DNA from: Ruminiclostridium papyrosolvens DSM 2782 | GTDB taxonomy: Bacteria; Bacillota; Clostridia; Acetivibrionales; DSM-1351 | Assembly: GCF_029318685.1 (NCBI RefSeq) | Contig: NZ_CP119677.1 | Coordinates: 682,001-746,000 of the forward strand | Reading direction: 5' to 3' | Length of the DNA stretch: 64,000 nucleotides | Shown: positions 51,081-64,000 of the stretch, one piece after another | Position numbering within the stretch: the stretch's first letter is position 1 | Layout: each line of letters begins with the position of its first letter | Notes under the pieces: generated by a model | Databases searched by the model: none | What the model was told of the DNA's origin: nothing | Seen by the model: only the letters and a program-made list of their open reading frames with translations | Made by a program: the position numbers and the translations under genes

Positions 51081-52244
51081 ATGATAATAGAGATTAAAGA
51101 ATCAAATGAAAACTATAGTCTGAGCGTAAAATCAGTTGACGCAAAGCAGGTTTTTATTACGATTGCAAATCAAAGTAAAGACCAAGACATACTGAAGACT
51201 GCTTCACTGCTATACAAAAAGGTCTATAAGATATTAACCAAGTATAACATAACAGTATTTCATGAAAGGTTTTTCGGAACAGGCAAGTATTATGATGATG
51301 TTCAGAAAATAAGGGCCGAGGAACTAAAACTGAATACTCAGAACCAATGTTTCAGTTATATTGAAGGTTCTCCTTATTGGGGTGAAGGAGTCTCAGGAAT
51401 TAACATACATGGTTTTATTTTATGTAATGAAGAAATAGAGGATGTTGAGTTTAACGGAATAGTCTGCGGAAAGCTGTATAAGACTGACGCTGTGGACTAT
51501 ATGTTAGTACATACCGTTCATGGAAATAAAGAAAGTGACTACTACGGACAGACATATGAGATGTTCCAATCAATGATTAAGGTACTTGGAAAATACGATT
51601 TTGAGCTGAAAAATGTTATAAGGACATGGATATATTTGAATAATATTCTATTGCAATACGATGAGTTCAATAAAGCCCGTACAAGGATATTCCTAGAAAA
51701 CGGGTTATGGTCTGACTCTGTAGCTGTTGATAAAACAGAAGAAATATATATGCCTGCAAGCACAGGTATCAGCTGTGGCAATCCACATGGTCTGACTGTA
51801 ATCTCGGATATTCTGGCTGTAAAAACAAAAGATATCGAAAAGTTCAAGTACTCAAGTGAATCAGGCAAAGCTCAGAAGTCTGCAATGCGTTACGGTTCTG
51901 CTTTTTCAAGGGCTATTGTGCTGGATAATAAGACAAGCAAATATGTTTATTTATCAGGTACGGCATCAATAGATGATTTGGGGAATACAGTGTATCTTGA
52001 CGATATAGGCTTGCAGATAGATAAGACATATTCCGTGATTGATGCCTTGTTGGATGTAAGCTCAATGAAATTAAATAACATGGTTGAAGGAACGGTATTC
52101 TTAAAAAAAGCAGAGTATGTAGATGCATTCATTGAATACTGCAAAAGTCGGAATATTGAACTGCCTGCACTGATTACGGTTGCTGACGTGTGCAGGGATA
52201 ATCTGCTGTTTGAAATGGATGGAACCTTTGCAGGAGGAAAATAG
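51081..52244 (+). CDS. Chorismatase-like RidA-fold protein (FkbO/Hyg5/XanB2-type)
   Basis: A 387-residue cytoplasmic protein with the two-domain RidA/YjgF-like layout of chorismatases. The first half ends in VIRTWIYLNNILLQYDEFNKAR. The second half has MRYGSAFSRAIVLDN, YVYLSGTASIDDLGNTVYLDD, MVEGTVFLKKAEY and LPALITVADVCRDNLLFEMDG. Characterised members convert chorismate to 3- or 4-hydroxybenzoate or dihydroxycyclohexadiene carboxylate plus pyruvate, starting points for quinone-like or polyketide products. ATG 51081 follows AGGAGG. It is unlinked to other aromatic genes in the window. The assignment is by remembered motifs; a plain RidA-like deaminase is the alternative. Confidence 0.65.
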   Translation: MIIEIKESNENYSLSVKSVDAKQVFITIANQSKDQDILKTASLLYKKVYKILTKYNITVFHERFFGTGKYYDDVQKIRAEELKLNTQNQCFSYIEGSPYWGEGVSGINIHGFILCNEEIEDVEFNGIVCGKLYKTDAVDYMLVHTVHGNKESDYYGQTYEMFQSMIKVLGKYDFELKNVIRTWIYLNNILLQYDEFNKARTRIFLENGLWSDSVAVDKTEEIYMPASTGISCGNPHGLTVISDILAVKTKDIEKFKYSSESGKAQKSAMRYGSAFSRAIVLDNKTSKYVYLSGTASIDDLGNTVYLDDIGLQIDKTYSVIDALLDVSSMKLNNMVEGTVFLKKAEYVDAFIEYCKSRNIELPALITVADVCRDNLLFEMDGTFAGGK

Positions 52245-54829: not shown

Positions 54830-57800
54830 ATGAAAAAAGGCAACTGTGGATTTTGCCGTAAACTTGCAGCTTTTCTGGTGTTGGTGCTGATTTTTCAGTC
54901 CTGTGGATTTGTTCGGGCAGCGTCAACTGATACTGTGAATGTGGATTTTAATAACATTTTACGGCCCGTGAATCATAGTAACTTTGGCTACATTCTCACA
55001 CCTAACTATGATATACCGGATAGCAGGATGAAAATGCTTGGACCCATTCTTAACCGAGAGACCATCCCAGTCCAGACCTTCCAAGGAGTAGGTGATTTGG
55101 ATGGTACATGTTTTAACAACGAAAACAGTCAGCTTCAGAGGTGCTTGGAGGCATATCAAAGGGCAAAGGCAAACGGATTGAAGTGGTACTTCCTTCTTGG
55201 ACTTAATCCGTCGTGGACAGCACCTAACGGCACTCCGGGAGGTGGTGCTCCTACAAATCAGGCTTGGTTTAAGCAGTATGTAAAAGATGTGCTTCAGTAT
55301 TTAAAGGACAATGGAGCGACGCCGGACTTTGCAGACCTTACAAACGAGTATTGGACAGGCCGTGAAGCTACATTCAAAGGCAATTGGGAAGCCGTAAGGG
55401 AAGTTTATCCGGACTATATACCTATAGTCGGCCCCGGTGCAGTAGGTTATTCAGGGATAGCGGATTTTTACATACCGTTTTCCAGTCAAAACCAAATGGA
55501 TTTGGAAGGACCTTGCTGGCATGAATACTGGGAAGGCAGTACATATGCGTCATATACTCAGACAAATAAATGGAAGGATCCCATAGTAAGCCTTCAGACA
55601 AAATATCCTGAAACCAACGGCAAGTATGTGGTATGGGAGGAAAACAACTCTTGGTCAACGTCGGCTGTTGATTGGACACGAAGTATGGCCAATGTAGTGC
55701 GCTCAGGAATCACCCAGAATATTAAGGGCTGTATCAAATCAGGCAACTGGAATGGCATGAGCGATATATTGACAACAACTGTCAGAAACAGTCAACAAAA
55801 TGGAGCTGTCAGGACGCCCATATGGTGGGTATATTACATGTTCTCTCAGTTGTCGGGACACTATGCGGGAGTTTCAACGAGTACAGGGGATGATATTACA
55901 GCTTGTGCCAGCAGAGACACTGATGAATGCAAGGTTATCATCGCAAAAAGCACAACCGCAGGTACCATAAATGTAAACCTGAACAATCAGCCTTACAGCG
56001 GGAAGGACGTAAGGATAGACCTATATAAAATTACTTCAAGTGAAAATAACGGTCTGACATACCAATCCAGTATTACACCTTCTTCAACTTCCAACATAAG
56101 CTTTTCAATAAACAATGCGGCAGCCAATGATTCATGGCTGGTGGTTTTGAAAAAGGTTGATTCTGCTCCAAACTTTTTCCACCCAATGACTCCTGACGAT
56201 GGGGAAGTTACTACAACAGCACCGACACTTACCTGGTCGGCAGCTCAAGGTGCTGCCAGTTATACGGTGAAAGTATCTGTAAACAAGGATTTGTCCGACC
56301 CTGTCATCAACCAATCGGGCATTGCCGATACCAACTACACGGTTGCAGCACCTTTAACTGAAGGCCAAAAGTATTACTGGAATGTTACCGCAGTAAATTC
56401 CGGCGGAAGTCGAACAGTCTCAAACGATGCCGTTTATTCTTTTATAGCCGGTGCAAATGCCGGTGTACCCGGACAATTCGGACCTTACCTGCCGTCACGG
56501 AATGCACCTAATGAATCAGTTACACCAAAATTTTTGTGGTCAAGAGCATATAACGCAAGCTCTTATCGTTTGGTAGTTTCCAAAAACAGTGACCTTTCAT
56601 CTCCGGTAATAAATAAATCAGGAATTACAACTATAACAGGTACAAATGAATTTGGCCCTAATACGGCATCAACTTATACTCCTACTACAGCATTGGAAAA
56701 CAATACTACATATTATTGGAGGGTATACGCCCTAAATGCAAATGGAGAGAGACCAATAAACGGGCCTATACAATATTTCACTACAAAGACTGCAGGAAAT
56801 TCGCCTGTAAGCTTCAGCCTGTCTGCTCCTGCAAACGGAATAACAGGTGTTTCAGACAGAGCGGTACTTTCGTGGACGCCTTCCGGGAATGCCTTCTTCT
56901 ACAAGCTTGAGGTGTCTTCAAATGCAGACATGTCTAACCCTGTAATTCTGAGGGACAGGATGATATATAACAAATATACCGTAGAGCCCAATCTACTGAA
57001 TCCTGATACCAAGTATTACTGGAGAGTTACAGCATATACAAAAAATCTGGCAAACTCCACGGCATCTTCCAGTGGTATATGGTCATTCACAACAGAGAAT
57101 AAGCCATGCTCGCCATTGCTATATGCCCACCAGCCCGATAATAACAGTATAAAGCTTTGGTTCAGGCTCTCAAAAGGGGCAACTTCATACAATATCAAAT
57201 ACGGTACGGAACCAGGTGTGTACACTAATACAATAAAAGGCGTTACTGCAAGCCCATACACCGTTTCAGAACTTAAAAGCGGAACAAAGTATTACTTTGC
57301 AGTAACTGCAGTCAATGAAAACGGTGAAAGCTCCATATGGAACGAAAGACCTGAAATTACCGGGGGGACTGCCATTCCCAACCCTGACTCCAGGTCGGCA
57401 TTTGCGCAGATTGAAGGAGAAAGCTTCGATAAGCAATCGGGAGTTCAAACAGAAACCTGTTCCGAGGGAGGAGAAGATATCGGGTACATAGAGAACGGAG
57501 ATTACGCTGTTTACAGTAACATTGACTTTGGGAATGGTGCTGAAAAATTTCAGGCAAGAGCAGCGAGTAACTCAAGCGGAGGAAACATCGAGATTCATCT
57601 CGACAGCATCAACGGTACCTTAATAGGAACATGTCCTATTACCGGAACGGGAGATTGGCAGACTTATGCAGATACATCCTGTAGTATCAGCGGTGTGAGT
57701 GGGAAGCATGAGGTATATCTGAAGTTTACAGGAGGAAACGGGTACTTATTCAACTTAAACTGGTTCAAATTTACCCCAATAACTGTAATTGTCGGAGACC

Positions 57801-58000
57801 TCAATGGAGATTCCGGTGTAGATGCAACTGACTATGCACTGATGAAAAAGTATTTGCTTGGATTAATTACGGATTTGCCTGTAGAAAATGGTCTTACGGC
57901 AGCTGATCTAAATGGTGACGGTGTGATTAACGCCATTGATTTATCACTATTCAAGAAATATCTGCTGGGTATTATTGAGGAATTACCTTATACAGGCTAA
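54830..58000 (+). CDS. Cellulosomal glycosidase-like protein (clan-A barrel, FnIII repeats, CBM6, dockerin)
   Basis: A 1056-residue secreted protein. After the signal peptide (ends near FVRAAS) comes a TIM-barrel hydrolase resembling GH39/GH79-type clan A enzymes. The acid/base candidate is Glu173 in FADLTNEYWTGR and the nucleophile candidate is Glu270 or Glu271 in YVVWEENNSWS. Four FnIII-like modules follow (about 450-545, 550-660, 665-770, 775-855; KYYWNVTAVN, TYYWRVYALN, KYYWRVTAYT, KYYFAVTAVN), then a CBM6 (about 865-975) and a dockerin (DLNGDSGVDATDYALMKKYL, DLNGDGVINAIDLSLFKKYL). ATG 54830 follows GAGGAGG. A hemicellulose target is likely; the exact GH family is unsure. Confidence 0.85.
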   Translation: MKKGNCGFCRKLAAFLVLVLIFQSCGFVRAASTDTVNVDFNNILRPVNHSNFGYILTPNYDIPDSRMKMLGPILNRETIPVQTFQGVGDLDGTCFNNENSQLQRCLEAYQRAKANGLKWYFLLGLNPSWTAPNGTPGGGAPTNQAWFKQYVKDVLQYLKDNGATPDFADLTNEYWTGREATFKGNWEAVREVYPDYIPIVGPGAVGYSGIADFYIPFSSQNQMDLEGPCWHEYWEGSTYASYTQTNKWKDPIVSLQTKYPETNGKYVVWEENNSWSTSAVDWTRSMANVVRSGITQNIKGCIKSGNWNGMSDILTTTVRNSQQNGAVRTPIWWVYYMFSQLSGHYAGVSTSTGDDITACASRDTDECKVIIAKSTTAGTINVNLNNQPYSGKDVRIDLYKITSSENNGLTYQSSITPSSTSNISFSINNAAANDSWLVVLKKVDSAPNFFHPMTPDDGEVTTTAPTLTWSAAQGAASYTVKVSVNKDLSDPVINQSGIADTNYTVAAPLTEGQKYYWNVTAVNSGGSRTVSNDAVYSFIAGANAGVPGQFGPYLPSRNAPNESVTPKFLWSRAYNASSYRLVVSKNSDLSSPVINKSGITTITGTNEFGPNTASTYTPTTALENNTTYYWRVYALNANGERPINGPIQYFTTKTAGNSPVSFSLSAPANGITGVSDRAVLSWTPSGNAFFYKLEVSSNADMSNPVILRDRMIYNKYTVEPNLLNPDTKYYWRVTAYTKNLANSTASSSGIWSFTTENKPCSPLLYAHQPDNNSIKLWFRLSKGATSYNIKYGTEPGVYTNTIKGVTASPYTVSELKSGTKYYFAVTAVNENGESSIWNERPEITGGTAIPNPDSRSAFAQIEGESFDKQSGVQTETCSEGGEDIGYIENGDYAVYSNIDFGNGAEKFQARAASNSSGGNIEIHLDSINGTLIGTCPITGTGDWQTYADTSCSISGVSGKHEVYLKFTGGNGYLFNLNWFKFTPITVIVGDLNGDSGVDATDYALMKKYLLGLITDLPVENGLTAADLNGDGVINAIDLSLFKKYLLGIIEELPYTG

Positions 58001-58049
58001 GGATGTATAATTTATAGCCGTTTTTCTACGGAAGTAGATAGCCTAGTGC

Positions 58050-58095
58050 AAAAGCAGCCATCTAAACAGAATAATCTGTTTAGATGGCTGCTTTT
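58050..58095. terminator. Strong bidirectional terminator
   Basis: A 21-bp perfect stem (58050-58070 with 58075-58095) and a 4-nt ATAA loop, with A and T runs at the ends, separates the convergent dockerin genes at 58000 and 58113. Confidence 0.9.
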
Positions 58096-58112
58096 GGTTG
58101 AACCTATTTATA

Positions 58113-60728
58113 TTATAAATCAGTTTTAATTCCAAGCACTACTTGTTTCAAAATCGCAAAATCAATTGCGTTTATATCTCCGCTATCATCAACATCAGCT
58201 GCTTCTAGCTGTTCTGCGGGTAAATTATCAAGTTCACCCATTAATATCTTTTTCACAAAGACCAAATCAATTGCATTAATTTCTCCATCACCATTTACAT
58301 CACCTTTTTGTAAGGTTTGAGCAGGATTACTGTCTATTTGAAGCAAATATGCCTCAAGTTGTGAAAGCTGTTCAGCAGTAAGCTGTGATGTTTTACCATG
58401 TTTGTCATTTGCATTCTTTGTTGTCAGTACTTCATGGAGTGTTGCCGCAGAACCATCATGCAGGTATGGGGCAGTTCTCCACAATTCCTTAAGCGGTGGG
58501 GTATAATACATTCCATCGGGGTCTAGAATATCTTTTGTACCAACATCATGAGCTTTCAAATCAGTATACATTTCTCCGGAGTGACAGTAAGAACATTTTG
58601 TCTCACTGCTTTCAAAAATAGCTTTTCCGGCAGCAGCATCTTTTGTCATTGTACCTTTATTCGAGTATGGGTCAGCTTCCTCAGAGAGGCTCTTGATATA
58701 AGCAGTTACATCATCAAGCTCTTGCTGGGTTGGCTCTTTAAACTTTATGTATTTGAAACCTGCTTTTATGCCAACATGTGCATCATCTCTTACTCCACGC
58801 CACATAGCAGGAGGTGTATCAAAAACATACAACATTGACTTAGTGTTTTTAGTATTGCCGATACCGTCATTTGGCATGTCCCAGTTAAGTCCGTCGGCTC
58901 TGCCGTCAGGATGACAGGAGGCACAACTGAGCCATTTTTGTGTGGTGGTTGATGCATCGTAGAATATACGTTCACCACTTCTAACCTGACTTTCTTGGGG
59001 TTGTATACCCAGTTTTGCCGTGCTTTTCAATACACTACCGAAGGTATCTATAAGATATACTTCTCCTGCAAAATATGCGCCTACGGCTACAGTTTTACCA
59101 TCCGGTGATAGGGATATTCCTCTTGGTCCCTGACCGGGTAGCTCAATCTCTTTTAACAGACCTGCTCCCCATAAAGCTCCAAGATCATATTTCAGACCAC
59201 TTTTTTTTGTGGGGTCGGCTTTAATTTGTAACCAGATATCTGAATATGGTTTGTCGAAGCCCGATTTTGAACGGAATAGTAAGGAATAATTGCTTGTCGA
59301 ACCTCCGGAACCAGCTTTTGATATTTTCCATTGCTGGCTCAAGCTTGTACTACTGCTGTTTGTTACTATACCGGCATTGTTACTGGTAGAAGCAGAACTA
59401 ACATCCATGTATTTCTGACTGGATTTCACTTGAAGCTTGTAGTAACCGTTTCCTGCATCAATTAATTTCCATTTCTGATTATCTGAAGAACTCTGGTCCC
59501 ATTCCACTACAGCCGAATTATCTCCGGTAGCGCCTGCATTGTCCAGTGCTTTGTTTGTTCCCCTGTTAATAATTGAATAATACCCGTCAGAACCGGCCAC
59601 TAACTTATACTGCTGGTTGTTGTTACCCACATCATCCCATTGTACCAGCTGAGTGTTGTTAGCAGAATTACCGTTAGGTACATCAAGGGCTTTTCCACTA
59701 TTTCTGTTTACTATCTTATAGTAAGAACTAGAATCAATTTCAGAACTGTCACCGCCGTTTAAATTTCCTGCTAAAAGCTGATGTAGACCATTCAAATCAA
59801 CTCTCAGCACTTGATGAGTTCCTGACACACTGACCCACATGGTTTTACTGTCTGCTGATATTGCCAGTCCCCAAGGGTCTGCTGCTCCTTCCATTGTTCT
59901 GTCCAAAAGGAAGGTAGTATATATTTGTTTGGTTGCTATATCAATAATAGTAACTGCATTTGTCATTACCCATCCTCTTGTTATCTGGGTAGTAGGAAGG
60001 GATGTTTTTCCGAAGGTGTGAAGCACGTACGCCCACTTACCGTCAGGTGAACATTTAATGCCTCTTACATTTGATGAACCCTGTGGAAGCACAATATTTG
60101 CAACTTCACTGGAGGTTTTCATATCGATAAAGGTAACTGATGCGGCATACTTAGCTTCGGAGGCATTTCCTGAAGGCAGGGCATGTCCGACTATTGCATA
60201 TTTGCCGTCAACAGTACTGTCCATTAAGTAGGGATAATCTTTAACAGAGATATTTTTTTCAACATTGCCTGAGGACAAATCAACTACAGATACTTTTTTC
60301 AAGCCGTAATCAGATACAACGAGTTTATCCTCTACTACTTTTACTCCAAGAGGTTTAGACCCTGTTGAAAACCTTCTTTTTACTTCTCCGGAAGCCGGAT
60401 TTACTTCGGCAACAGTACCTGCTCCGTACTCACAAACATATATATTTTCATTTCCATTCCATGCAAGAGCTTTAGGCTGTCCATCCAACTGAATAACCTT
60501 TTGAACTTCACCGTCGGATGCCTTCAATATTTCAATCTGTGCTTTAGTTGAATCTGATACCGCTATCATGCTGCCATCAGGGGAATATACAGTATCAAAA
60601 GGTGAAAAATATGTATTGTCAGCCGAATAGCCAATATTACTATCAGGAAACAGGAAGCTCACTACAGTAATGACTATTGCTATGCAAAGAATCATGGGAA
60701 TTAATTTTTTATTTGTATACCGATTCAT
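58113..60728 (-). CDS. Dockerin-bearing beta-propeller/ricin/diheme cytochrome c fusion
   Basis: An 871-residue exported protein. After a membrane/signal segment (LIPMILCIAIVITVVSFLF) comes an YncE/40-residue-repeat propeller (YSPDGSMIAVSDSTKAQ, VSDYGLKKVSVVDLSSG). A ricin-type CBM13 is inserted at about 335-475 (QQYKL, QKWKL, QQWKI repeats). A further propeller blade leads into a cytochrome c peroxidase/MauG-like domain with two heme sites, CASCH at residue 602 and CSYCH at residue 712, plus TAPYLHDGSAATLHEV. It ends in a type I dockerin (809-871; two NAID repeats). ATG 60728 follows GGGAG. It is last in the CcmF-HzsA-like operon, 41 bp after its neighbour. It would attach a redox protein to the cellulosome. 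Confidence 0.9.
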   Translation of the reverse strand: MNRYTNKKLIPMILCIAIVITVVSFLFPDSNIGYSADNTYFSPFDTVYSPDGSMIAVSDSTKAQIEILKASDGEVQKVIQLDGQPKALAWNGNENIYVCEYGAGTVAEVNPASGEVKRRFSTGSKPLGVKVVEDKLVVSDYGLKKVSVVDLSSGNVEKNISVKDYPYLMDSTVDGKYAIVGHALPSGNASEAKYAASVTFIDMKTSSEVANIVLPQGSSNVRGIKCSPDGKWAYVLHTFGKTSLPTTQITRGWVMTNAVTIIDIATKQIYTTFLLDRTMEGAADPWGLAISADSKTMWVSVSGTHQVLRVDLNGLHQLLAGNLNGGDSSEIDSSSYYKIVNRNSGKALDVPNGNSANNTQLVQWDDVGNNNQQYKLVAGSDGYYSIINRGTNKALDNAGATGDNSAVVEWDQSSSDNQKWKLIDAGNGYYKLQVKSSQKYMDVSSASTSNNAGIVTNSSSTSLSQQWKISKAGSGGSTSNYSLLFRSKSGFDKPYSDIWLQIKADPTKKSGLKYDLGALWGAGLLKEIELPGQGPRGISLSPDGKTVAVGAYFAGEVYLIDTFGSVLKSTAKLGIQPQESQVRSGERIFYDASTTTQKWLSCASCHPDGRADGLNWDMPNDGIGNTKNTKSMLYVFDTPPAMWRGVRDDAHVGIKAGFKYIKFKEPTQQELDDVTAYIKSLSEEADPYSNKGTMTKDAAAGKAIFESSETKCSYCHSGEMYTDLKAHDVGTKDILDPDGMYYTPPLKELWRTAPYLHDGSAATLHEVLTTKNANDKHGKTSQLTAEQLSQLEAYLLQIDSNPAQTLQKGDVNGDGEINAIDLVFVKKILMGELDNLPAEQLEAADVDDSGDINAIDFAILKQVVLGIKTDL

Positions 60729-60769
60729 TTTTTTTAACACTCCCATCTATATTATTTTAGCCAAGGGAT

Positions 60770-62884
60770 TTAATTCAGAGATGGCTCGACCTGCTCTCCT
60801 CTTAACTGGGCATCTGTATTCTTATAGTCTCCAAAGAATGGTGCAATTCCCGAATCCATCCATATTGTAAATGAGTGAAGCTCGCTTGGAGTAAGATTAC
60901 CATGTCCCGTCTTTAACTTTTGATATAACTTTGATGCTCTGGAACCGAACTTGCCCGGTTCAGTTCGAGGATAGACATGATCCCAGTTAGCACCTTTATA
61001 CATTACATCAAATAGCGCAACATATGGCTTCAGATTTTTATACGAACTAAACCATTTGGTTTGGGAATCCAGGTTTCCCTTTCTAAGGTCAGGGACCTGA
61101 GAGCCATTGTGACATGAGATACATTTTTTATCCAAAATAGGCTGAATAAGCCTTGGAAAACTCATTGGCCTTGCGCCTTGGGATGCATCAGGTGTAATTG
61201 TTGAAGGTGTTCTCCTTAGTGCTAAGGGAACACTTTGCGGATTCTCTGCTGCTTTACGGGCAGGTTCGTGACAACCCTGACATAACAGCCGGTTTTGTCC
61301 CGGGACAAGGAAGGTATCAGATCTCATAGTCTGAACGGCAGTTCCGTCTTGATCAACAGCCTGGAAAAAAACAGGTTTTCCGGGTGACAAATAGAAGGAT
61401 GCACTACCATCTTCCTCGACCGGTACTGAGCCTAATAGCCCTCTGGTATTTCTACCGGCCCATGAACTTTCAGTTCCTTCATAGCTTACTATTGGGTCTG
61501 TTGCCAGAGGTGTGGTCTTTGGATACACCTGCCAGATACGCAGTTCTTTAATCTTTGTTCCGGATGGGAATGGAAGCAGTGTATCATAAATATTCATTAT
61601 AGATACAACTCCATCAGGAGCTTGTCCCGTTGGTATAGCTGAGCCCGGAATACTGTTGGGTACAGTACGTGGGCGAAGTGGCATAGGACCGTAACAAGAA
61701 AAATTAGGATCGCTGTACAGCATTGTCTTGTTTCCTTTAGTATCTATAGCATATATTCCATATCGCTTGTTTGCGCCATTACTGTTGGCATTGGGATCAT
61801 AGATACACAGAAAATAGTCTTCGCTTAAAGGATATGGAGTTCCGTATTTCTGATCGGTTGTGGTGCCGGTTTCAGTTTCCGGATATTTTGCATCAGGTGT
61901 AATTTTTGTAATAGTGGAAAGGTTGTCATCATCTTCAACATCCGGGTCAATAACAATTAGAGGCCCATAGTTTTGAGCATGATGAGGAGCGGCTGTCGCA
62001 ACATATTTGTTGGAATTCGGTATTGCTCTTAATGAATTCTGCATCATAGGAACGTTTTTCCACCATTCATCCCCGGAGTTAGGGTAATTTAGCGTAATAG
62101 CTCTCGCATCAAGACCGTCGGGAGTGGTTATCCATGCAGAATGAGGATGAGTGGCACCTCTGTCCACGTAGTCCCAACGAGTGTAAACAATCATACCGTT
62201 GTTATCAACACAGGGACTCCATTCATTAGTTTCATGGTAACTTATGCATCTTATATTGCTCCCGTCTGCATTCATTGTATGCAGATTAAAGGTGGGAACC
62301 GTACGCTGATGACAACGTCCGTATCCGCCTCTTCTTTCTGATATAAATACAATCCTTCCGTCGGGAAGCCAGCGAGGATCAAAATCATTTACACTCCCGT
62401 CGGTAAGCTGTGTGAGATTTGTCCCGTCCACATTTACCTTGAAAATGTGGTAAGTAGTGTTTTGATTCCAAACGCCGTAGGAATTTTGAGCATCTGTGTA
62501 GGCGAATACAATTTCCTTTGCATCGTAACTCACATCAAAGGAATAGAAGGCTCCTCCTGTAAGCTTCTTTCCTGCGTAACGCCCATTTTTGCAGATAGAA
62601 TTCTGTAAAACATCGGTTACGGTGGGATTGCCTGAAAAGGCATTGTTCAGAATATACAGTCCACCACCTTTTACTCCTGTAAATCCGAAGTTTCCATCAA
62701 TCATATGGTTCTCAACACCTGAATATGGCTGATGTTTAGTAAAAACGATTTTGTCAAAGTTAAACTCTGACTTTTTAAGATCAACACTTCCCGAAAATAC
62801 AACAGAAATCTGAGTAGCCAATAAAACTGCGGTTATTAACATAACTGCAATAATCTTGAGAGATAGTTTTGATGCTTTTGTCAT
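60770..62884 (-). CDS. Secreted diheme c-type cytochrome with TolB/HzsA-like propeller
   Basis: A 704-residue exported protein with a signal segment (LKIIAVMLITAVLLATQISVVFSG). A TolB/WD-like propeller follows (DFDPRWLPDGRIVFISERRGG). The C-terminal part resembles the hydrazine synthase alpha-subunit family (SFYLSPGKPVFFQAVDQDG, AVQTMRSDTFLVPGQNRLLCQGCH). Heme sites are CQGCH at residue 535 and CISCH at residue 588. There is no dockerin. ATG 62884 lies 7 nt after AGGAGG and 2 bp after the CcmF-like stop, so expression is coupled. True hydrazine synthase needs its beta-gamma partner, which is not visible here, so another electron-transfer role is likely. The propeller-cytochrome pair (this and the next gene) may act together outside the cell. 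Confidence 0.85.
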   Translation of the reverse strand: MTKASKLSLKIIAVMLITAVLLATQISVVFSGSVDLKKSEFNFDKIVFTKHQPYSGVENHMIDGNFGFTGVKGGGLYILNNAFSGNPTVTDVLQNSICKNGRYAGKKLTGGAFYSFDVSYDAKEIVFAYTDAQNSYGVWNQNTTYHIFKVNVDGTNLTQLTDGSVNDFDPRWLPDGRIVFISERRGGYGRCHQRTVPTFNLHTMNADGSNIRCISYHETNEWSPCVDNNGMIVYTRWDYVDRGATHPHSAWITTPDGLDARAITLNYPNSGDEWWKNVPMMQNSLRAIPNSNKYVATAAPHHAQNYGPLIVIDPDVEDDDNLSTITKITPDAKYPETETGTTTDQKYGTPYPLSEDYFLCIYDPNANSNGANKRYGIYAIDTKGNKTMLYSDPNFSCYGPMPLRPRTVPNSIPGSAIPTGQAPDGVVSIMNIYDTLLPFPSGTKIKELRIWQVYPKTTPLATDPIVSYEGTESSWAGRNTRGLLGSVPVEEDGSASFYLSPGKPVFFQAVDQDGTAVQTMRSDTFLVPGQNRLLCQGCHEPARKAAENPQSVPLALRRTPSTITPDASQGARPMSFPRLIQPILDKKCISCHNGSQVPDLRKGNLDSQTKWFSSYKNLKPYVALFDVMYKGANWDHVYPRTEPGKFGSRASKLYQKLKTGHGNLTPSELHSFTIWMDSGIAPFFGDYKNTDAQLRGEQVEPSLN

Positions 62885-62886
62885 TT

Positions 62887-64000
62887 TCAAACCTCCTGTT
62901 CTAAATTATTTTTTATTACTATTTTTGTTTTTTTATTTTCAAAAACGTAATACAGAATCGTGAATACAATCAATAAAATGCTTCCGGCCCATACAAGGTT
63001 AACCCATTTTACTACCTTAACTTTTAAGGATATATTGTCCTTCTCGTCTATACCTTCGAAAATTATGTATAAATCTTCTTTCAATCCTGATTTTATTACT
63101 GCTCTGGAGTGAGAGGTTTTCATTTTTTGATAATACGAAAGTTCCGGCTTTAACTGGAATTTTCCGGCAGGGCCACTGACCCCCAAAACGGAAACAGCGG
63201 TAGTTTTTCCTGTTTCTTCTTTCCAAAAGAGGTTTCTGTATTTCACTTCATATTCTCCGAAAACCATGGTGCTTCCCTTTTCCAGAGTCTTATCCGTAGA
63301 TTGAAGCATTCCCATGGACCCTGCAAAGCCAACTGCCATTAATATCAATGCGGCATGTAGTAATAGAACTGCCATTTTTTTCGGATTCAATATAAGCTTT
63401 TTATAGTTTATTACAACGTTTATAATCAAATTTACTGCCAGCATAGTACAAACTGCCAGAGACAATTTTGTAAGTAAGCCGTAATCAGAAAGAAATAGCA
63501 TTAGTCCCAATACTGTTAAGCCACATACGGCGCCGGGAATCAAAAGCATTTTTCTAGAAAAAATACTTGGATTAATTGAAAGAAATAAAAGCATCAGAAT
63601 ACCATATATTCCGAATACGTACTGGTAAAAACTTATGGGTGCAGCCGATGGATTTTTGATAAACAGTCCTCCAAACAAAGGGAAGGTTGTACCGCCAAAA
63701 ATTAAAACAGCTGTTATAATGCTTATTGCAGTAAACAAGTTGCCGGGTTTAATTATATTTGGAAGCAGCTTTTTAGGTGCTGCTTCACCGGAGTTATTTA
63801 TTACGTCCTTTCCATGTGCTTTTCTAATTTTGAAGTAATAGAAAATAAAAAGCAGGACCAGGGCCAGTAATACCACTCCGAAAACCACGGTGACACCACG
63901 GCTGCTGTAAGCATGTACCGATTCCAATACACCGCTTCTTGCAATGTAGGTACCCACAAGTATGGTAAATGAAGTTAAAAAAATCAAAAGAAAATTCATT
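62887..64000 (-). CDS. CcmF/CcsA-type cytochrome c maturation protein (partial)
   Basis: The visible 370 residues are the C-terminal part of a multi-helix membrane protein continuing past the right edge. The stretch FTILVGTYIARSGVLESVHAYSS matches CcmF of system I cytochrome c biogenesis (heme lyase), followed by more helices (TFPLFGGLFIKNPSAAPISFYQYVF), an extracytoplasmic beta segment (STMVFGEYEVKYRNLFWKEETG) and a last helix (VWAGSILLIVFTILYYVF), the usual CcmF tail. The WWD heme-binding region would lie upstream, out of view. It is the first gene seen in the operon with the two cytochromes and probably ligates their heme. Confidence 0.85.
   Translation of the reverse strand, partial: MNFLLIFLTSFTILVGTYIARSGVLESVHAYSSRGVTVVFGVVLLALVLLFIFYYFKIRKAHGKDVINNSGEAAPKKLLPNIIKPGNLFTAISIITAVLIFGGTTFPLFGGLFIKNPSAAPISFYQYVFGIYGILMLLFLSINPSIFSRKMLLIPGAVCGLTVLGLMLFLSDYGLLTKLSLAVCTMLAVNLIINVVINYKKLILNPKKMAVLLLHAALILMAVGFAGSMGMLQSTDKTLEKGSTMVFGEYEVKYRNLFWKEETGKTTAVSVLGVSGPAGKFQLKPELSYYQKMKTSHSRAVIKSGLKEDLYIIFEGIDEKDNISLKVKVVKWVNLVWAGSILLIVFTILYYVFENKKTKIVIKNNLEQEV

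Follow-up and report, generated by a model that had tools for sequence, protein, structure and literature searches.

A predicted hydrazine synthase-like cytochrome complex with a cellulosome dockerin in Ruminiclostridium papyrosolvens DSM 2782

The window analyzed here, a stretch of 64,000 nucleotides from Ruminiclostridium papyrosolvens DSM 2782 (contig NZ_CP119677.1, positions 682,001 to 746,000), encodes an 877-amino-acid protein that combines relatives of the beta and gamma subunits of hydrazine synthase (HZS) with a ricin-type module and a type I cellulosome dockerin. Together with an HZS-alpha-like protein and the heme lyase CcmF, both encoded immediately upstream, it probably forms a cellulosome-docked, HZS-like oxidoreductase complex that acts on a plant-wall substrate. 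This reading is carried by the predicted domains, four heme motifs, the gene order, their conservation, and a host-like dockerin, all evident from sequence comparison, and these features suggest redox chemistry for the docked complex. Cellulosomes are generally thought to be hydrolytic machines, complemented by lyases and esterases.

The anatomy of the dockerin-bearing cytochrome is, as far as can be judged from its sequence, nearly certain (Table 1). The single unbroken frame with propeller, ricin-type module, diheme part, and dockerin, which an earlier sequence-only reading had proposed, was borne out with a corrected start: position 60728, previously taken as the end of the gene, is the second in-frame ATG (MNRY...), and an upstream ATG extends the frame to 60746. 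Both previously noted CxxCH motifs are real, and their residues 602 and 712 become 608 and 718 when counted from the upstream ATG. One hydrophobic N-terminal segment was recognized by eye. The Pfam scan of the protein retrieved RicinB_lectin_2 (residues 339-414, 6.9e-32), CCP_MauG (587-664, 4.1e-08, over the cut-off), RoxA-like_Cyt-c (747-777, 1.5e-08), and Dockerin_1 with both repeats (814-870, 9.9e-15), and it contained no hydrolase, lyase, or esterase family. The best PDB match is that of the ricin part to 3pg0 (1e-30), and Q-x-aromatic motifs occur in this module at residues 378, 424, 444, and 471. Among the NCBIfam models, the HZS beta-gamma fusion family hydrazine_BC ranks first (3.9e-40, 137.7 bits, cut-off 1250), followed by those for HZS beta and gamma, all of them far under their cut-offs. 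The AlphaFold model, built from 4 sequences, is confident at the main part of the propeller and its last blade only. CxxCH motifs and a maturation gene in the same row identify the protein as a candidate c-type cytochrome.

The HZS-alpha-like gene is located 23 bases upstream of the beta-gamma-like gene, and CcmF ends 2 bases beyond its homologue-based start; a TTG at 62890 would be an alternative start of this open reading frame, giving 706 amino acids. Judging from the spacing, the three genes (64788-58113, reverse strand) look like one operon and would be co-transcribed. CcmF is the sole Cytochrom_C_asm (PF01578) match in the genome of 5,027,861 bases. Neither the operon partners (60770-62884 and 62887-64788) nor the relationship to hydrazine synthase had been part of the sequence-only reading.

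Table 1. Features of the dockerin-cytochrome operon and related genes. Positions refer to the window unless a locus (L) is named; aa, amino acids.
Feature	Position	Strand	Remarks
HZS beta-gamma-like fusion with ricin insert and dockerin	58113..60746	-	877 aa; alternative start 60728
HZS-beta-like propeller, main part (residues 46-330)	59757..60611	-	5c2v_B 1.2e-23; profile 7.3e-41
Ricin-type beta-trefoil, CBM13-like (residues 336-476)	59319..59741	-	Inserted ahead of last propeller blade
Last propeller blade (residues 530-575)	59022..59159	-	Second profile domain matching 5c2v_B; AlphaFold
HZS-gamma/CCP-MauG-like diheme domain (residues 585-805)	58332..58994	-	5c2v_C 2.5e-21
CxxCH, heme I (residues 608-612)	58911..58925	-	10/10 beta-gamma alignment rows
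CxxCH, heme II (residues 718-722)	58581..58595	-	9/10 rows; the exception, G062, ends earlier
Type I dockerin (residues 814-870)	58137..58307	-	Ala-Ile recognition pair in both repeats
HZS-alpha-like subunit, PD40 repeat and HZS_alpha domain, two CxxCH	60770..62884	-	704 aa, ATG by homology
HZS_alpha middle domain (PF18582)	61265..61555	-	7.4e-20, 71.8 bits vs cut-off 26.6
CxxCH, heme alpha-I	61268..61282	-	11/11 alpha alignment rows
CxxCH, heme alpha-II	61109..61123	-	11/11 alpha alignment rows
CcmF heme lyase, C-terminal part	62887..64000	-	Whole gene 633 aa, to 64788 (L031:888-2789)
Long inverted repeat between convergent genes, possible shared terminator	58049..58097	.	By eye; missing from consensus scan
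Chorismatase-like gene	51081-52244		6 kb from operon
Adjacent chorismatase-like genes	L056:8270-9319, L073:3291-4448, L075:14656-15783, L048:4695-5789, L049:2399-3541, L051:1943-3124		
Second dockerin-cytochrome genes	L056:11405-14431, L074:11110-14127, L075:11445-14495		Each adjoining its own CcmF

Homology to all three HZS subunits is supported by curated families and by the solved complex of "Ca. Kuenenia" (5C2V), with family scores under the NCBIfam cut-offs and over the Pfam cut-off for HZS_alpha. As in that complex, two heme motifs are present on alpha and two on gamma, and beta is a propeller; the beta-gamma fusion resembles HZS of Scalindua (PMC12758564). Four residues, alpha-Tyr591, alpha-Cys303, gamma-His144, and gamma-Cys165, are among those described as important for HZS (PMC12758564), and the equivalents of three of them are absent here. 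No Tyr that could correspond to Tyr591, the ligand of heme alpha-I, occurs within 13 residues after the alpha-I CxxCH (CQGCHEPARKAAENPQSV), no Cys that could provide the third heme bond of gamma-Cys165 is found between residues 611 and 718, where the aligned residue is Lys, and the place of gamma-His144 is occupied in the 5c2v alignment (chain numbering offset from the CxxCH) by Trp649. The region of the zinc ligand alpha-Cys303 could not be aligned with confidence to 5c2v; this residue is reportedly not kept in Scalinduaceae (PMC12758564). Since three HZS residues are missing and the scores lie far below the NCBIfam cut-offs, the docked complex is, judging from these sequences, not a hydrazine synthase. 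It further differs from the Kuenenia enzyme by the added ricin-type module and dockerin, the position of the alpha gene ahead of beta-gamma, and the cellulolytic host.

HZS-like alpha/beta-gamma pairs in which the key residues are not kept have been reported for Planctomycetota and Desulfobacterota (PMC12758564), and it has been proposed that HZS-like proteins form a broader family whose members use other substrates (PMC10732223). The operon described here shares with the non-anammox HZS-like clades I-IV (PMC12758564) and the hzs-like genes of Phycisphaerae (PMC10732223) an alpha homologue that adjoins a fused beta-gamma homologue as well as the loss of HZS residues, and with clades I-III the upstream location of alpha; Trp at the His144 place is a further common trait (PMC12758564). 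Unlike the non-anammox pairs, the three-gene row contains no FG-GAP gene. The available main text of PMC12758564 contains neither "Clostridi-", "Spirochaet-", "Bacillota" nor "dockerin"; Bacteroidota and Bacillus appear in its beta-gamma tree. In the open literature searched, nothing combined hydrazine synthase with a dockerin. The former assignment of the diheme part to MauG and peroxidases can be retained for the gamma-like domain, which has two CxxCH motifs, a CCP_MauG match, and a Trp at the catalytic position, in common with MauG, RoxA, and the di-heme cytochrome c peroxidase (CCP). It cannot be extended to a stand-alone enzyme, as the protein is the beta-gamma half of an HZS-like pair: the NCBIfam cut-offs are unreached (MauG, 40.2 bits versus 443.85; di-heme CCP, 35.8 versus 150), and the domain shares its chain with a propeller and has HZS-alpha as a partner.

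In a sample of 398 genomes from the phylum, HZS_alpha is carried by 3 (R. papyrosolvens DSM 2782 included); within the order it occurs in 8 of 58 genomes, and within the genus in 4 of 11. In all eight carriers of the order, a beta-gamma gene with two CxxCH motifs and a dockerin is located alongside. CcmF accompanies the pair in seven of them; in the eighth (G423), ResB and CcsA are found instead, located one gene farther along the row. Outside the order, the pair with dockerin is also present in one Spirochaetales metagenome-assembled genome (MAG). A scan of genome contigs confirmed three loci among 17 candidate stretches, i.e., those of R. papyrosolvens C7, Pseudobacteroides cellulosolvens, and the Spirochaetales MAG, whose beta-gamma protein is 50% identical and has both ricin-type module and dockerin; CcmF gave no match in the 13 kb around this locus. 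In all, eight further orthologues have the same domain order, both CxxCH motifs, and a dockerin (R. papyrosolvens C7 [G403], P. cellulosolvens [G425], the Spirochaetales MAG, G400, G402, G408, G423, and G427), and a second dockerin-cytochrome family was also found. All nine members with the ricin insert have a dockerin (four by Pfam and five by motif and alignment), a count that leaves out G240, where beta-gamma is cut by the contig end. Dockerin and ricin-type module are both missing from the four non-dockerin rows of the alignment (G062, P. distasonis, and two Aureibacter loci). When the dockerin label is followed along a tree of 14 alpha proteins, it has to change twice; a single change is also compatible with this tree. 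The dN/dS ratios (nonsynonymous to synonymous substitutions, NG86) of 0.087-0.106 for the whole beta-gamma protein in four comparisons, two of them with dS above 1, indicate purifying selection. As side observations, the homologue of G062 (L043:15533-17113) stops after the first heme domain and lacks heme II, and HzsA-like proteins fused to SUMF1 (L048, L049, and L051) are encoded on circular records from a plasmid collection (Parabacteroides and Aureibacter), with a beta-gamma homologue on the same record. DhaK/DhaL/LsrF genes are found near the fusions in L048 and L051, and one Phocaeicola record has a match as well.

The dockerin itself looks, from its sequence, to be in use. In R. papyrosolvens, PF00404 matches it with 54.9 bits (cut-off 22.9) and with two calcium-binding repeats, and the genome has 71 dockerin matches in total. 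The Ala-Ile (AI) pairs of both repeats, which we take to be the recognition residues, resemble those of other host dockerins: in 30 of the 71, the first pair is AI in 9, SI in 10, AL in 6, and another in 5, and the second, read in 28 of these 30, is AI in 14, SI in 11, and another in 3. A scaffoldin, ScaA, with six type I cohesins has been described for this species (PMC6628489), and P. cellulosolvens is reported to load its enzymes by type II interactions (PMC4582573). The beta-gamma proteins of the two species are 75% identical overall; the identity amounts to 81% for the main propeller, 83% for the ricin-type module, 86% for heme I, 80% for heme II, and 29% for the dockerin. The cytochrome dockerin of P. 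cellulosolvens scores 119-199 (five at least 170) against the six dockerins of its own genome in the stretches compared, one of which belongs to the second cytochrome, and 48-65 against four Ruminiclostridium orthologues. For its congener G427, the scores are 183-210 against five local dockerins and 48-80 against orthologues outside this pair, and in G408 two local dockerins (243 and 209) beat all orthologues (62-168) and a third (151) does not. If docking is under selection, an exchanged dockerin on an otherwise conserved enzyme is the pattern to be expected. The suggestion that a heme protein is aimed at the cellulosome is, as a prediction, well supported by a dockerin that occurs in every ricin-insert member and is host-like where compared, and by the heme lyase in the gene row.

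A link to cytochrome maturation was also seen across the order. PF01578 is over its cut-off in 11 of the 58 genomes at 13 loci, 11 of which share their gene row with a dockerin-cytochrome; the exceptions are two short contigs of G437. It is present in 8/8 HZS_alpha carriers compared with 3/50 other genomes (p 9e-8, with related genomes that are not independent), and this is the unbiased part of the link, as HZS_alpha was searched independently of PF01578. For both cytochrome families taken together, the proportions are 10/10 and 1/48 genomes, again related and not independent, and the contribution of the second family is biased because it was found beside PF01578 genes; its three genomes, detected only there, are a lower bound. 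The second-family proteins are encoded in G401, in G411, and at another locus of P. cellulosolvens, which therefore carries both families. They comprise 1005-1016 amino acids, have CcmF and no HZS genes alongside, and contain one N-terminal CxxCH and a dockerin, with Ig/PKD-type domains in that of G401, the only one scanned, with which the remaining two share 62% and 75% identity. The first ~535 residues have no Pfam match at E 0.01 and weak matches to NCBIfam cytochrome models (best 0.03), all PDB matches (best stretch) lie after residue 850, and a plasmid search with a 492-amino-acid piece gave no match. Standard system I maturation was rejected as a candidate, as CcmE (PF03100) is found in 0 of the 58 order genomes and G423 has ResB and CcsA; CcmF would act either as a one-gene heme lyase or with further partners. 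PF13442 had no match in the R. papyrosolvens genome at E 0.01, and this search says nothing about other cytochromes because it also fails to report the beta-gamma protein itself.

In the complex that we propose, CcmF would attach the hemes of the alpha-like and beta-gamma-like proteins, which by analogy with hydrazine synthase would assemble outside the cell. Through the dockerin, the entire complex with its four hemes would be attached to the scaffoldin, and the ricin-type module would hold it on a plant-wall glycan. The CCP/MauG-type heme pair of gamma and the alpha hemes would then run a redox reaction at the wall; the proposed targets are a polymer of the wall, the aromatic groups attached to it, or small products released from it. 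The carbohydrate-binding module of the complex differs among three lineages: ricin on beta-gamma in the dockerin clade, F5/8 type C on alpha in G062 and G240, and NPCBM, together with a SUMF1 domain, on alpha in three Bacteroidota loci. The neighboring genes encode GH3 proteins (G062 and G240), a rhamnosidase-like protein under the cut-off (G062), sulfatases and GH2 (one Aureibacter locus), and dockerin enzymes (R. papyrosolvens DSM 2782). The different modules and neighbors are, judged at this level, best read as pointing to a glycan-side role that leaves the substrate unfixed.

Several observations weigh against a docked oxidoreductase complex. The assembly of alpha with beta-gamma follows from homology and synteny only, the AlphaFold model is poor outside the propeller (mean predicted local distance difference test score 49.8), and CcmF stands without CcmE, which makes heme attachment by this route less certain. 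The dockerin of R. papyrosolvens is closer to its within-genus orthologues (176-260) than to 30 sampled local dockerins (best 162), and that of G427 is closer to its P. cellulosolvens orthologue (269) than to local ones, so that dockerin exchange is visible between genera only. Moreover, "cytochrome" and "heme" do not occur in the main texts on the R. papyrosolvens secretome (PMC6628489) and the P. cellulosolvens proteome (PMC6507058), supplements being outside this search.

Other explanations have to be considered. If the gamma-like domain were a cytochrome c peroxidase and alpha its electron entry, the complex would scavenge peroxide or other oxidants and thereby protect both the anaerobic cell and the cellulosome where oxygen begins to reach them. 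The CCP_MauG match over the cut-off fits this idea, as does Trp649, because the catalytic Trp of CCP/MauG is reported to stand at the gamma-His144 place (PMC12758564). We nevertheless regard it as unlikely, since a scavenger leaves the HZS-alpha partner, the propeller, and the carbohydrate-binding modules added in three lineages unexplained, and the Trp is replaced by Ile in three Bacteroidota rows of the beta-gamma alignment. An extracellular conduit through which the cellulosome or the cell hands electrons to partners, minerals, humics, or an aromatic shuttle of small size would agree with four heme motifs across two secreted-looking proteins, the second, monoheme dockerin-cytochrome family, and the recurrence of chorismatase-like genes nearby. 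As each chain has no more than two heme motifs, and with no multiheme wire seen alongside, an HZS-type fold that suggests an enzyme, and chorismatase-like genes in apparent secondary-metabolite clusters (G402, G403, and G404), it is less likely still.

True nitrogen chemistry, i.e., a cellulosomal hydrazine synthase that uses NO and ammonium, could invoke the homology of all three subunits, but the absent Tyr after alpha-I, the absent gamma-Cys165, the exchange of His144 for Trp, and a score of 137.7 bits instead of 1250 make it highly improbable. No more credible is an electron donor for lytic polysaccharide monooxygenases (LPMOs), as has been predicted for Cbp2D/Cbp2E of Cellvibrio, which likewise link a redox protein to carbohydrate binding (PMC12542752). 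LPMO_10 (PF03067) was found in 0 of the 58 order genomes, that of R. papyrosolvens included (other LPMO families not searched; in the search control, 1/14 genomes matched), and the related TtX183 domains are said not to donate electrons to TtAA10 (PMC10916295). The chance that an assembly artefact, such as a join near 58320, or a decayed gene has been described is negligible, since the same domain order recurs in eight other genomes, i.e., nine in all, with a dN/dS of about 0.1, and no point in its favor was found.

A bolder extension of the docked-complex reading is tentative and on balance doubtful. The cellulosomes of several anaerobes would have a redox arm to which two or more unrelated families of cytochromes contribute, namely the tetraheme HZS-like complex and the ~1000-amino-acid monoheme proteins, with heme lyases acquired together with them. 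The HZS-like complex would use heme-based radicals, and neither oxygen nor copper, to break or modify wall polymers, as an anaerobic counterpart of LPMOs.

The closest working parallel, by analogy, is provided by Cbp2D/Cbp2E of Cellvibrio japonicus, which like TtX183 of Teredinibacter turnerae are extracellular redox proteins of cellulose degraders (PMC12542752, PMC10916295). Cbp2D/E are reported to be required on insoluble cellulose, and a cellulose-cutting heterodimer has been proposed (PMC12542752). As described in these sources, the hosts possess LPMOs, and the proteins are carbohydrate-binding and not dockerin-docked. A dockerin has been named together with a redox enzyme for Geobacter genes with fibronectin, dockerin, cupredoxin, and laccase parts (PMC6199725), but these imply copper instead of heme, and Geobacter is not known as a cellulosome host. 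Classical cellulosomal subunits have the same host-kind type I dockerin, and they differ in that heme motifs take the place of hydrolase, lyase, or esterase families here. The statement that no cellulosomal cytochrome has been described held up in the open literature (main texts and listings, with subscription papers and preprints outside): "cytochrome" and "heme" are not found in the main texts of genome comparisons of Ruminiclostridium and mesophilic clostridia and of a cellulosome survey, and the available text of PMC9012536, PMC5244752, PMC12246660, and PMC6199725 describes none.

If the docked heme complex is real, redox chemistry would be added to cellulosomes, and this in anaerobes in which LPMO_10 was not found. 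For the HZS-like family, this would provide a host that can be cultured, a place of action, and a secreted member amenable to purification with the cellulosome, and the question of what the ancestors of hydrazine synthase did would thereby become directly testable.

Genes related to FkbO/Hyg5-type chorismatases were repeatedly encountered in the vicinity of HZS-like and cytochrome genes, and Bacteroidota are no exception (Table 1). In the order, they are present in 9/10 cytochrome genomes and 1/48 others, with a search model that takes 4/7 of its rows from the same genomes. A fourth partner is not claimed because of these model rows, the distance (more than 20 kb or another contig in G400, G402, G403, G411, and G427), and the secondary-metabolite-type clusters that were recognized by eye in G402, G403, and G404. 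Upstream of CcmF (L031:3238-13098), an apparent DNA-binding/substrate-binding regulator, siderophore-type ABC transporter genes, an apparent small GTPase, and a ModD-like gene were noted, likewise by eye. The window also encodes a further dockerin protein (54830-58000) with CBM6 and fn3, whose first ~430 residues contain no Pfam catalytic domain over the cut-off. It is possibly an undescribed glycosidase, and a relative adjoins the operon in R. papyrosolvens C7.

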